Source: Candidatus Gastranaerophilales bacterium (GTDB taxonomy: Bacteria; Cyanobacteriota; Vampirovibrionia; Gastranaerophilales; Gastranaerophilaceae). Taken from it: DNA of 64,000 bases. A program made the position numbers and the translations under genes. The notes beneath the pieces were generated by a model. That model saw nothing but the letters and a program-made list of their open reading frames with translations. It had not been told where the DNA came from and made no database searches. Of the stretch, positions 33,087-37,860 are shown in pieces. Location of the stretch: contig CALUTL010000002.1 of NCBI GenBank assembly GCA_944323655.1, positions 62,001-126,000 on the forward strand. Reading direction: 5' to 3'. Within the stretch, counting starts at the first letter, position 1; each line of letters begins with the position of its first letter.

Positions 33087-33521
33087 TTACTCGATCAAAT
33101 CTACTCTGCGTTTATGTCTTCCGCCTTCAAAACCTGTCTTAAGCCAAATATCAACTACATCAAGTGCAAGGTGTTCTCCGATTACACGCTGTCCAAGGCA
33201 AAGCACGTTTGCGTTGTTGTGGGCTCTTGAAACTCTTGCTGAATATGTATCGCCGCATAAGGCTGCTCTTATTCCTTTTACTTTATTTGCTGAAATTGAC
33301 ATTCCGATTCCGGTTCCGCAAATTAAAATCCCGCGGTTTGATTTGCCGGATATTACTCTTTCACAAACTGCTCGTGCTATTTCAGGATAATCACAAGCTT
33401 CCGGTGTATGCGTTCCTAAATCAACATAAGGAATATTTCTTGCTTTTAAGTAATCTATTATCTTTTCTTTATACTGAAATCCGCCGTGATCTGAGCCGAT
33501 TGCTACTTTCAAATCTTCCAT
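33087..33521 (-). CDS. rpiB: Ribose-5-phosphate isomerase B
   Basis: Interconverts ribose-5-phosphate and ribulose-5-phosphate in the pentose phosphate pathway. 144 aa from ATG 33521, preceded by AGAGGTG; longer upstream starts would exceed the family length (about 145-150). KVAIGSDHGGFQYKEKI, PYVDLGTHTPEACDYP, ILICGTGIGMSISANKVKGIRAALC (with the catalytic Cys of the RpiB group) and SRAHNNANVLCLGQRVIG. Confidence 0.96.
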   Translation of the reverse strand: MEDLKVAIGSDHGGFQYKEKIIDYLKARNIPYVDLGTHTPEACDYPEIARAVCERVISGKSNRGILICGTGIGMSISANKVKGIRAALCGDTYSARVSRAHNNANVLCLGQRVIGEHLALDVVDIWLKTGFEGGRHKRRVDLIE

Positions 33522-33644
33522 ATAAACACCTCTTTTCATTCTAAATAAGAACACTTGTTCTTATCTTTTCTATATTCTAATTATAATGTCTTTTTAATTT
33601 CTTGCAAATATTATCCCTTAGTTTTGTTACAAATATTTTACGCA

Positions 33645-33670
33645 CTAAAAAGCCCTTATTTAAAGGGCTT
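33645..33670 (-). terminator. Intrinsic terminator after the NNFGGG gene pair
   Basis: AAGCCCTT (33650-33657) pairs with AAGGGCTT (33663-33670); read leftwards it is followed by a T-run. It ends the 219-aa gene transcript. Confidence 0.85.
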
Positions 33671-33694
33671 TAAACTTTTTTATTTATTTATCCT

Positions 33695-34354
33695 TTATTC
33701 TTCTTTTAATTTAGCTTCGTGTTCTTTTTTTAATTCTCTTACTTCTTCCGGTGTTTCTCCTTTCAGTTCAATTTCTTTACCATCTTTATCTTTTACTTTT
33801 GCTATATAAGAGCCGTCACTGGTTTTTGTTATACCTTCTTGGTATAATTTCGATTGTTCTTTTAATTCCTGTACTTCATCTAATCTTTTTTTATTTACTT
33901 CTTGTAATTTTTTTACTTGTTCAACTAATTCTTGTATCTCAGAAGAATCTGATTCTTTTGTAGATTTTGATTCGGATTTTTTGGCATTTATTATCTCACC
34001 GGTCACTCCTGCCAGCTGCCCTAAAGTATTTAAAACGCCTCCTACTATGGCCGTGGTTGTTCCGGCTCCGCCGCCGTAAAAATCTCCATACAATCCCATA
34101 CCCATCATGCCCATTGAATTGTACATACCCATAGAATTATACATTCCCATGCCCATAGGATTGTACATACCCATACCAATCATGCCCATGTTCATCGGAT
34201 TATACATGTCCATACCCATCATACCCATGCTCATTCCGCCACCAAAATTATTTATAGTGGATTTTTCAAAATGAACATTCAGGTTCTGCCTTGAACCTAA
34301 TTGTAATCTTCCTGTTGGTACTGTGCAATGGTTACGACCTATCATCCATGCCAT
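33695..34354 (-). CDS. 219-aa NNFGGG protein with Met/Gly/Tyr repeats
   Basis: No known family. Order of parts: a short basic N-terminus; the module TGRL..NLNVHFEKSTINNFGGG (residues 14-40), shared with the next gene; a Met/Gly/Tyr/Asn tandem-repeat zone (41-90; words GMYNPMG, GMYNSMG); a small hydrophobic zipper (TTTAIVGGVLNTLGQLAGVTG); a Glu/Lys/Gln coiled coil (EIQELVEQVKKLQEVNKKRL); and a short beta-like end (SDGSYIAKVKDKDGKEIELKG). No signal peptide is evident. The gene starts 24 bases after the 311-aa paralogue, likely one transcript. Possible structural or surface role (inference). Confidence 0.75.
   Translation of the reverse strand: MAWMIGRNHCTVPTGRLQLGSRQNLNVHFEKSTINNFGGGMSMGMMGMDMYNPMNMGMIGMGMYNPMGMGMYNSMGMYNSMGMMGMGLYGDFYGGGAGTTTAIVGGVLNTLGQLAGVTGEIINAKKSESKSTKESDSSEIQELVEQVKKLQEVNKKRLDEVQELKEQSKLYQEGITKTSDGSYIAKVKDKDGKEIELKGETPEEVRELKKEHEAKLKEE
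34085..34234 (-). repeat. Degenerate tandem repeat coding for Met/Gly/Tyr-rich zone
   Basis: Imperfect repeats of about 15-30 bases built on the words CCCATACC and TTGTACAT (plus strand), encoding MGMYNPMG, MGMYNSMG and MGMMGMG units. The frame is kept across all units, so copy number could change without disrupting the protein. Confidence 0.7.
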
Positions 34355-34378
34355 TTTTATACATCTCCTAAGTTTGGG

Positions 34379-35314
34379 TTATTTGTTTTCTTCTTTTTCT
34401 TTGTTGGCAATTTCTTCTTCTGCGGCTTTTACGGCTTCTTCTCTTGTTTCATATAGAGTTGAGCCTACGCGTTTTCCGTCTACTGTCGGCGCATATTTGC
34501 TGCCTACTGCGACTGCACTGCTCTTATAGGTTTCATGTTTTTTAAGAGCATATTCTGATGGTTTGACATCTGAGTCAGGTACCTTTTTGTCATAGGTATA
34601 TTTCTTTCCGTTTACTTCTACTTCCATCGGTAACTGAATCTTGCCTGTTGGTAGGGCTTTACCTTTGAATATATCATTGCAGATTGCCATTATCTCTCCG
34701 TGAGTAAGCGGCGTTCCGTCTTCTGCTTTGTATTTTGCTGCAACTATGTTATAGCCTGTATAGCCTCTGTATAAGTTATCACCTATCTTTTGAGCCGTTA
34801 CGTTAAATTCTGCATATTTCGCTTCTTGCTTTACTTCTTCTGCATCGGCTACGTGTTTATTACCATCATCAGTTTTGACAGGTGTTTCTGTCTTTGCTGG
34901 TTCCTCGACCGGCTTGTTATCTTTTAGTTCTTTTATTGTATCGTCCAATTTCTTGTTATCTTCTGTCAGCTGCTTTATTTGCGCATTTAAATCATCTATT
35001 ACTGAATTATCTGTTTTTTCAACGCCGCCTTTTCCGTCTTTTTTAGCTCCGAAAATTGCGCCTAATATTGCTCCTAGACCGCCAAAAATAGTTGATACGG
35101 CTAAACCCCATTTTTCTGCTTTTGTAAGACTCGGAGGGTTGTAATATCCATAATCCATCATAAAACCACCACCGAAATTGTTTACGGTTGTTTCTTTGTG
35201 GTAGATATTTATACTTGATGGCGGTCTTCTTACACCATGAAGCCCTGCTCTTAATTGACCAGTATTATATTTTAAAGGTTTATAAACAGGTATTTGGTTT
35301 GGATAGTCGCCCAT
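34379..35314 (-). CDS. 311-aa NNFGGG protein with coiled coil
   Basis: No known family. The N-terminal module TGQLRAGLHG...INIYHKETTVNNFGGG (residues 18-50) is clearly related to the adjacent gene. Then a short Met/Tyr patch (FMMDYGYYNPP), a hydrophobic glycine zipper (GLAVSTIFGGLGAILGAIFGAK, ~69-90), a coiled coil (VIDDLNAQIKQLTEDNKKLDDTIKEL) and a Thr/Lys/Glu linker. The C-terminal half is globular (NVTAQKIGDNLYRGYTGYNIVAAKY, LPMEVEVNGKKYTYDKKVP). GGAG lies upstream of the ATG, and the shared AT element lies at 35340-35357. First gene of a two-gene unit. Confidence 0.77.
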   Translation of the reverse strand: MGDYPNQIPVYKPLKYNTGQLRAGLHGVRRPPSSINIYHKETTVNNFGGGFMMDYGYYNPPSLTKAEKWGLAVSTIFGGLGAILGAIFGAKKDGKGGVEKTDNSVIDDLNAQIKQLTEDNKKLDDTIKELKDNKPVEEPAKTETPVKTDDGNKHVADAEEVKQEAKYAEFNVTAQKIGDNLYRGYTGYNIVAAKYKAEDGTPLTHGEIMAICNDIFKGKALPTGKIQLPMEVEVNGKKYTYDKKVPDSDVKPSEYALKKHETYKSSAVAVGSKYAPTVDGKRVGSTLYETREEAVKAAEEEIANKEKEENK

Positions 35315-35472: not shown

Positions 35473-37860
35473 TTAAATATCCAATCCTGTAAAAAGTTGG
35501 AGATTTGAAGCATTATCAAGTGCAGGATAATCATTTATGTCATAGTTATTTATAAAATTAATTGCTTCGTAGCGTGCTTTTTCTAATATTTCGGCATCAC
35601 GAACTATATCGGAAATTATCAAATCCGGAAGCCCGGATTGTCTTGTTCCCAAAAATTCTCCGGGGCCTCTGAGCTGCAAGTCTTTTTCCGCAATTACAAA
35701 GCCGTCATTGGTTTGTGTCATAATTCCGAGCCGCTCTCTTGTTTCCTGCGAGCGTGAAGAGGAAACAAGAACACAATAAGATTGTAAACTGCTTCTGCCG
35801 ACTCTTCCTCTTAACTGATGAAGCTGGCTAAGACCAAATCTTTCAGCGTTTTCAATTACCATAACAGTTGCGTTTGGAACATCTACGCCTACTTCTACTA
35901 CCGTTGTTGAAACTAAAATGTTGTATTTACCATCTTTGAAATCTGCCATGACTTGCTCTTTTTCATCGTTTTTAAGTTTTCCGTGTAGAAGCCCTATTTT
36001 CATCTCCGGAAAAACTTCAGATTGAAGTCTTTCAGCCTCTTTTGTGGCGGCTTTGGCTGATAAGGTTTCACTTTCATCAATCAGCGGGTATACAACATAA
36101 GCTTGACGACCGGCTTCAACTTCTCTTTTTATAAGCTCATAGACGCTTTTGTGAGATGAAGTAAGAGATGTTTTAATCGGTAGTCTGCCTTTCGGCAATT
36201 CGTCTATTATTGTTAAATCCAAATCACCATGAACTGTTAAAGCTAAAGTTCTGGGGATCGGCGTTGCGGTCATTGTAAGCATTTGCGGGTTTTGAGATTT
36301 CTTCTTTAAGACGTTGCGCTGTTTTACACCGAATCTGTGCTGCTCATCGACGACAATTGCACCTAAATTATTAAAATCCGTTGAATCTTGAATCAGAGCA
36401 TGCGTTCCGACAGCAATATTTGTTTGACCGTTTCTTAAATCAGTTTGGAATTTTTCCCTGACTTTTTTCCCTTGACTTCCTAAGAAAAGCCCGACACTAA
36501 GCCCGAGCGGAGTAAGCCAGTTTACAAGATTGTTATAATGCTGCTGGGCAAGAATTTCTGTTGGTGCCATAATCGCTCCCTGATATCCGTTTTCAACACC
36601 TGCCAAAAGCATTATACAAGCAACTACGGTTTTTCCGCTTCCGACATCTCCTTGAAGCAGTCTTGCCATTGGCTTTTCCGAATGCAAATCATTTAAAATT
36701 TCATTTACTGCGCGCTTTTGCCCTCCTGTAAGTTCAAAGGGCAGACTGTCTATGAATTTTTGAACTAATCCGTCACGCTTTATTTCCAGTGAAACCGCCG
36801 AATGTTTATTGTTTTCGTTTCTTAGGCGAACCATTTTTAATTGAACAATAAACAATTCTTCAAAAATCAGACTGAATCTCGCTTTTTCTAACAATTCCTG
36901 ATTTTCGGGAAAGTGAATTTGCTCTATCGCTGTTTTTTTGTCCAGTAAATCGTATTTTTCTCTTAAATATTCAGGCAAAATATCTTTTATAGAATCCTTG
37001 TAAAGCTGAATCGCATTATAAATCGCTTTTCTTAATGTTTTAACGCTAAGATTTTCGCAAACTGTATAAATCGGAACAATCCTTGCCATATTAAGATTTG
37101 AAGCGCCATTTTCAAGGAATTCGCCGGTCATAATTGAGTATGAAGGCTTGTCAAAGGTCAGACGGTGATCGTAATTGTTCATTTTTACAGTTCCTGAAAC
37201 CATTATTCCGGCATTTACTGGAAATTGCGCTTTTGTCCGCTCTAGCGTATATCTGTTACCTTTTGCCTGAAAAAAGCCTAGCTCAATAGTGCCTGATTCA
37301 TCGGATATTTTAACTTTTACAACAGATAAATTGTTTTTTGAATTAAATGCAGAAACGGACTTTACATAACCGAAAATCGTTGTCGATTGGCCTTCCTGAA
37401 GATTTCGAATAAGGGTTCTGCTTGAATAGTCGATGTGTTTTCTCGGAAGATAAAAAATTAAATCCTGTGCTGTGTAAATTCCAAGTTTATTAAGAGAATA
37501 AGCAACTTTGGGGCCAACCCCTTTTACATAGGTTACATCAGTTTCTGAGGGGCTTTTAAGCGGAGTTAATGAAGAATTCTCTGACTTATTTTCCGGCTTC
37601 GATTGAGCTATTTCAGAACGTATAACTTTTACCAGATGTTCGATAGAGCGTCTTCTTTCAGGCACCGAAGCTATCGGATAATGTGCAAAGGTTTCTGCAA
37701 TAACCGCCCATTTAGGGTTCTTTTTGGAAAGCTTATAATATTTATTCGCCTCTGAAACTATAAACTTTGAAAAACACTTTGTTTTCCCGTGAATATCAAT
37801 GTAGCGGTGCTTAACCTCAACATCTATCGCAAGTTTAAGTTTTTCCAAGTCCTCAATCAT
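35473..37860 (-). CDS. recG: ATP-dependent DNA helicase RecG
   Basis: Branch-migrating helicase that remodels stalled replication forks and Holliday junctions. 795 aa, with an N-terminal extension of about 100 residues before the typical start of homology (VTYVKGVGPKVAYSLNKLGI, an HhH-like wedge entry). Helicase motifs: LLQGDVGSGKTVVA (Walker A), PTEILAQQHYNN, VVDEQHRFGVKQR (DEQH), MTATPIPRTLA, VSTTVVEVGVDVPNAT and QLHQLRGRVGRSS. The C-terminal LRGPGEFLGTRQSGLPDL is diagnostic. N-terminal extensions like this are usual in cyanobacterial RecG. Confidence 0.97.
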   Translation of the reverse strand: MIEDLEKLKLAIDVEVKHRYIDIHGKTKCFSKFIVSEANKYYKLSKKNPKWAVIAETFAHYPIASVPERRRSIEHLVKVIRSEIAQSKPENKSENSSLTPLKSPSETDVTYVKGVGPKVAYSLNKLGIYTAQDLIFYLPRKHIDYSSRTLIRNLQEGQSTTIFGYVKSVSAFNSKNNLSVVKVKISDESGTIELGFFQAKGNRYTLERTKAQFPVNAGIMVSGTVKMNNYDHRLTFDKPSYSIMTGEFLENGASNLNMARIVPIYTVCENLSVKTLRKAIYNAIQLYKDSIKDILPEYLREKYDLLDKKTAIEQIHFPENQELLEKARFSLIFEELFIVQLKMVRLRNENNKHSAVSLEIKRDGLVQKFIDSLPFELTGGQKRAVNEILNDLHSEKPMARLLQGDVGSGKTVVACIMLLAGVENGYQGAIMAPTEILAQQHYNNLVNWLTPLGLSVGLFLGSQGKKVREKFQTDLRNGQTNIAVGTHALIQDSTDFNNLGAIVVDEQHRFGVKQRNVLKKKSQNPQMLTMTATPIPRTLALTVHGDLDLTIIDELPKGRLPIKTSLTSSHKSVYELIKREVEAGRQAYVVYPLIDESETLSAKAATKEAERLQSEVFPEMKIGLLHGKLKNDEKEQVMADFKDGKYNILVSTTVVEVGVDVPNATVMVIENAERFGLSQLHQLRGRVGRSSLQSYCVLVSSSRSQETRERLGIMTQTNDGFVIAEKDLQLRGPGEFLGTRQSGLPDLIISDIVRDAEILEKARYEAINFINNYDINDYPALDNASNLQLFTGLDI

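Follow-up and report, generated by a model that had tools for sequence, protein, structure and literature searches.

A shared N-terminal module joined to unrelated C-terminal parts in a tandem gene pair of Gastranaerophilales

Two adjacent genes in the 64-kb stretch of DNA analysed here (the window, G000:C2:62001-126000, part of a nearly complete 1.95-Mb genome) encode proteins, probably membrane proteins, that share an N-terminal module of roughly 90 residues (within the first 70–100) and carry unrelated C-terminal parts, or cargos. In relatives the module sits mostly at one locus that is conserved across genera, one of the cargos contains a LysM-like sequence, and charge is unevenly distributed about the hydrophobic helix of the module. 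No earlier description of the module was found in the literature, nor was its string NNFGGG, and as far as this search went the module is previously undescribed. The Gastranaerophilales, to which the genome belongs, are common gut bacteria and non-photosynthetic relatives of cyanobacteria, and their envelope proteins are hardly known.

Gene 1 (P0002, 311 amino acids, 34379-35314) and gene 2 (P0001, 219 amino acids, 33695-34354) both lie on the minus strand, 24 nt apart, and each open reading frame has an ATG start and an AGGAG-type Shine-Dalgarno site. The pair is flanked by genes that we take to be recG (35473-37860) and rpiB (33087-33554); these and the other gene names used here come from a reading of the sequences without a database search. 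Downstream of gene 2 is a terminator-like hairpin (33649-33671), a consensus match only, which the scan lists on the plus strand alone and whose stem is palindromic. No structured RNA matching Rfam was found.

Each protein is a chain of recognizable parts, all of them given here as minus-strand positions. Gene 1 begins with a leader and motif (residues 1-50, 35165-35314) that ends in TTVNNFGGG and is 90–92% identical to the same region of two close relatives. A glycine-rich hydrophobic helix (residues 65-90, 35045-35122, hydropathy 1.93), a predicted coiled coil (residues 103-133, 34916-35008), a divergent LysM-like domain (residues 167-230, 34625-34816, pLDDT ~90) and C-terminal strands with a helix (residues 258-310, 34385-34543, from the alignment of relatives and the AlphaFold model) follow. 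The leader and motif of gene 2 (residues 1-40, 34235-34354) are followed by a Met/Tyr patch (residues 41-97, 34064-34234), a weakly hydrophobic helix (residues 98-127, 33974-34063, hydropathy only 1.11), a predicted coiled coil (residues 136-172, 33839-33949) and a C-terminal unit of three strands and a helix (residues 173-218, 33701-33838), after which most relatives in the genus have a second, similar unit. The hydrophobic stretch and coiled coil that the preliminary description assigned to each protein are both present as AlphaFold helices, at residues 65-88 and 103-133 of gene 1 and residues 100-127 (low pLDDT) and 136-172 of gene 2. It also had the C-terminal parts differ, which they do, the two ends being unrelated, but the end of the 219-residue protein consists of β-strands plus a helix and is not only a short β end. 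An AP2- or integrase-arm-type strand-helix fold was considered for this end and set aside, its Z score of 5–6 in the fold search being too weak.

The homology of the two N-termini is clear from their sequences. The best local alignment joins residues 14-40 of gene 2 to residues 18-50 of gene 1, exactly where a shared motif had been proposed, with a BLOSUM62 score of 64 against a maximum of 44 in 5000 double shuffles. Profiles of the two sets of orthologues (13 each, from 13 two-gene sets of the genus taken in full) align in hhalign with a probability of 96% and an E-value of 4e-9. The remainder of the proteins also aligns, over the hydrophobic helix and the coiled coil (114 against a maximum of 68 in 1000 shuffles). 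The module is larger than NNFGGG alone and consists of several parts: an Arg-rich, acid-poor leader, the motif T-T-x-[IV]-x-N-N-[FY]-G (across module proteins also written TTxIxNNFxGG), a patch rich in Gly, Tyr and Met or in Cys and His, and the glycine-rich hydrophobic helix. In the AlphaFold models, which rest on shallow alignments (13 and 23 sequences), both proteins are disordered up to the helix and continue through the coiled coil into a more confident C-terminal part; the N-termini, unstructured and of low confidence, are neither related nor separated by these models. A general FxG-type N-terminal export motif was also considered and dropped, as only 6 of the 579 proteins in the DNA examined have one.

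The region in front of the helix is unusual in composition. The leader contains 9.7% Arg and 1.2% Asp plus Glu, and the patch 20.5% Gly, 10% Asn, 9.5% Tyr and 9.2% Met, often with Cys or His beside the helix. A Met/Tyr patch had been described for both proteins; it is large in the 219-residue protein but not in the 311-residue one. In gene 2 it is an in-frame tandem repeat with a unit of 39 nt, or 13 residues, that differs between close relatives while the frame is kept (39 nt × 3.2 in the window, 42 nt × 4.0 and 39 nt × 3.1 in two relatives). Such an Arg leader with a Gly/Tyr/Asn/Met patch might form a self-assembling scaffold, a condensate or β-zipper that lies on the cytoplasmic side and is tethered by the helix, and the unstructured AlphaFold region and the variable repeat are in keeping with this. 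The argument is one from composition, and few parts of the two proteins are kept as well as the leader and motif, which goes beyond what a pure low-complexity tract would need; we regard a scaffold as improbable. Cys, His and Met together make up 14.9% of the patch, compared to 4.9% in the neighbouring genes, and Cys or His occurs in 62 of 72 patches where 58% would be expected, which might point to the binding of copper or another soft metal at the membrane. However, neither ligand type nor spacing is conserved, the patch of gene 1 in the window has no Cys, and in some rows the patch as bounded here includes some of the leader; metal binding is very improbable.

A single, moderately hydrophobic segment is present in each protein (median Kyte-Doolittle value 1.6). 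The median charge is +3 on the N-terminal side of this segment and −4 on the C-terminal side, and the N-terminal side is the more positive in 68 of 69 rows, a count that includes two duplicates. Asp and Glu account for 16% of the C-terminal part. From this layout we infer insertion into the membrane with the N-terminus inside and the C-terminus outside. With a helix of such marginal hydrophobicity, insertion is open to doubt, and most of all in gene 2.

The same layout might be that of exported surface or periplasmic proteins in which the module serves as an unusually long signal sequence, made of a long N-region and a glycine-rich core, and the cargos evolve fast through exposure to phages or the host. 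At a fixed locus, dN is 0.13–0.16 for the gene pair and 0.015–0.055 for its neighbours, and protein-level change is about 2–10 times faster. Yet the two genes are under purifying selection, with dN/dS well below 1 (0.14–0.21 versus 0.01–0.04 in the neighbours), the N-region is strongly conserved and, on visual inspection, the helix is not followed by a consistent cleavage site of the Ala-x-Ala-like kind. Export of this kind appears improbable too. Within the pair, the first 40–50 residues and the LysM-like region are well conserved; the linker and the coiled coil are loosely conserved.

The preliminary description regarded the N-terminus as a module attached to variable cargo, and profile searches bear this out by finding further members in many genera. 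Gene 2 is matched in all 14 genomes of the window's genus. Within the family, a module profile of 20 rows had matches in 43 of the 146 genomes searched, and in 18 of the 41 genera, at E≤0.1, a cut-off at which the weakest matches are at chance level and some lie outside the locus. With a second profile of 29 rows, 37 genomes from 11 genera were matched at E≤0.01 in a sample that covered the whole class with 146 genomes from 65 genera, and in which the module was not found outside the window's family. Judging from stretches of 10–14 kb, the order cyclase-recG-[1-3 genes]-rpiB-rsfS is kept, with local rearrangements, in eight genera (g1, g7, g11, g17, g22, g27, g35 and g38, as we number them). 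In genus g14 the module gene lies away from the recG-rpiB interval, in g2 a module gene lacking a cargo directly follows recG in one genome and others lie at a different locus, and in the remaining genera sampled no module-type genes were found beside rpiB.

When 72 of these proteins were cut at the hydrophobic helix, 70 of the N-halves fell into one linked component and the C-halves into nine unlinked groups, the largest of which contains 23 proteins from g1, g11, g14, g17 and g38, gene 1 of the window among them. As shared low complexity may have inflated the links between N-halves, a held-out test matters here: a profile built from g1 and g11 only was run against 35 proteins from other genera and recovered 20 of them, representing six genera, at E<1e-3, against a best E-value of 0.05 in 1750 shuffles. 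Of the four N-termini that scored best in the supposed background of this test, one belongs to a truncated copy of a member already known and the other three to g7 proteins that resemble further relatives. Proteins of g38 were missed by the held-out profile and those of g17 matched weakly, not at E<1e-3; both are tied to the family by their locus and layout, and those of the gene 1 type by their cargo as well.

Several other proteins were noted during these searches. Genus g7 has a second module locus with conserved neighbours, which encodes proteins of 479–594 residues with long coiled coils (L156:2002-3585 (-), L161:3144-4583 (+) and L162:2391-4175 (-)). The cargo-less g2 protein (L164:3646-3984 (+), 112 residues) ends at the hydrophobic helix, which is preceded by a run of seven His. 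Two proteins of 429 residues (L158:3202-4491 (+) and L160:2548-3837 (-)) have a helix that starts in a similar way ('GLSNGQKWGIGLG') and, in the C-terminal part, an HExxH motif (HESGH or HETGH); they may be metallopeptidases. The window's own genome encodes a protein of 185 residues that has a similar helix start and matches the module profile weakly (E 0.0016; L155:1680-2237 (-), on contig C13), as well as a probable bactofilin, a protein that is rare in the family (G000:C20:25065-25250 (-), a frame of 124 residues, 36.4 bits with a neighbouring match).

When the central region of gene 1 is compared in hhalign with genuine LysM repeats from the same bacterial family, the alignment covers all 44 columns (1-44) and scores 31.7, against 14.1 for the best of 150 column-shuffled controls. 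The order of strands and helices in its AlphaFold model fits the β-α-α-β arrangement of LysM, but no LysM chain was among the matches listed in a PDB fold search with the whole gene 1 model. Compared to proteins of the LysM family (PF01476), gene 1 and its relatives align over the full profile, but their domain is below the gathering cut-off of 20.9 bits in all relatives tested (the window protein was not among the matches listed, and the best relative gave 13.6 bits, E 0.07) and has an insertion, Y-K-x-x-D-G-x-x-L-T. Because the score is below the Pfam threshold, we call the domain LysM-like. By its sequence, the domain is a candidate for binding peptidoglycan. A cytidine deaminase match (E 3e-4, below cut-off) overlaps the linker and the LysM-like region, occurs in only 3 of 23 relatives and was rejected. 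The same LysM-like domain is found in proteins of about 550–568 residues that are kept across the genus (L002:1297-2991 (-), on contig C13 of the window's own genome, and relatives L029-L033); these have two hydrophobic stretches and often an Asp-rich linker.

In two genomes of genus g11, G010 and G122, the modules of the adjacent genes match each other. Their N-halves are 86% and 80% identical, respectively, above any other N-half, and pair in the tree with support of 90/95 and 96/97. The C-halves of the same genes are unrelated (27–28% identity) and instead resemble their slot orthologues; among G010, G122 and G141, C-halves of the same slot are 45–75% identical, compared to 19–30% between the two slots of g11 in a forced alignment. 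Four-fold silent sites of the matched modules differ at 15/34 and 15/30, similar to the level between genomes, so the match is not a very recent copy. These two genomes could be explained either by selection for matching modules or by gene conversion on which selection then acted. Matching was not seen in the other three of the five g11 genomes. In the window's genus a permutation test for matched modules was positive, yet we discount it: the within-genome pair is the best module match in only 2 of 14 cases, and the test result reflects clades. That the modules form a lineage-specific assembly code of the envelope, in which matching cytoplasmic-plus-membrane modules co-evolve in each species, assembly is limited to cognate partners and new cargos can be fitted, is an idea that we hold to be unlikely.

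Matching neighbours would also be expected if each module bound one shared host partner, cytoskeletal or scaffolding, without the two paralogues touching. Such recruitment would resemble that of LmdC, whose tail binds bactofilin (PMC10945521). Bactofilin, however, exceeded the threshold in only 4 of 45 genomes and escaped detection in most module-carrying genera, for which reason it was rejected as a general partner, and no other partner was found. We rate recruitment without mutual assembly as rather unlikely.

The reading that we prefer, because it is the simplest one to cover these facts, has slightly less than an even chance in our estimate. Both proteins would span the inner membrane once, with a cytoplasmic N-terminus and a periplasmic C-terminus, and the shared first 70–100 residues would act in the membrane as a module for assembly and recruitment, joining the paralogues to each other or to a partner that both share. 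The coiled coils would extend the contact into the periplasm, and the C-terminal parts would be exchangeable working ends: a LysM-like domain binding peptidoglycan in gene 1, small strand-helix units in gene 2 and other domains in other genera. The 'sorting or assembly' role proposed in the preliminary description is plausible in light of (i) the Arg-rich tail, (ii) the single glycine-rich helix, (iii) the charge bias, and (iv) the matching partner modules of two genomes; assembly and localisation are inferences. A module that stays at one locus while its cargo changes across genera gives a direct handle on how these cells build or diversify their envelopes. It also offers a case, small enough to be tested, in which domains are exchanged and partner modules match.

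No family of Pfam, NCBIfam, PHROG or PDB sequences was reached by either protein, the only matches being weak coiled-coil or chance ones, and fold searches with both AlphaFold models gave nothing convincing. A phage origin was set aside, there being no match in the phage collection. Two known systems have a comparable layout. LmdC, an M23 peptidase that bactofilin recruits, is bitopic (PMC10945521): the recruitment signal lies in a short N-terminal tail in the cytoplasm, and the protein further has one helix, a periplasmic coiled coil and a C-terminal domain acting on the wall. The proteins described here appear similar in layout and differ in their tail motif and cargo, which is LysM-like or of another kind with no M23 peptidase match in Pfam; bactofilin, moreover, is missing from most module-carrying genomes. 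FtsL and FtsB (DivIC) of the divisome are two single-pass proteins with a cytoplasmic N-terminus, a helix and a periplasmic coiled coil that form a hetero-complex (PMC8749076). A comparable single-pass plan with helix and coiled coil is predicted here. Gene 1 matches Pfam DivIC over the coiled coil only (E 7e-4, 19.8 bits against a cut-off of 28.9), and NCBIfam FtsL was not reached (12 against 42.45). Unlike FtsL and FtsB, the present proteins have a long conserved N-terminal module, large C-terminal domains and tandem paralogy. By analogy, and with no claim of membership in either family, LmdC and FtsL/FtsB show that a plan such as the one proposed here works in bacteria.
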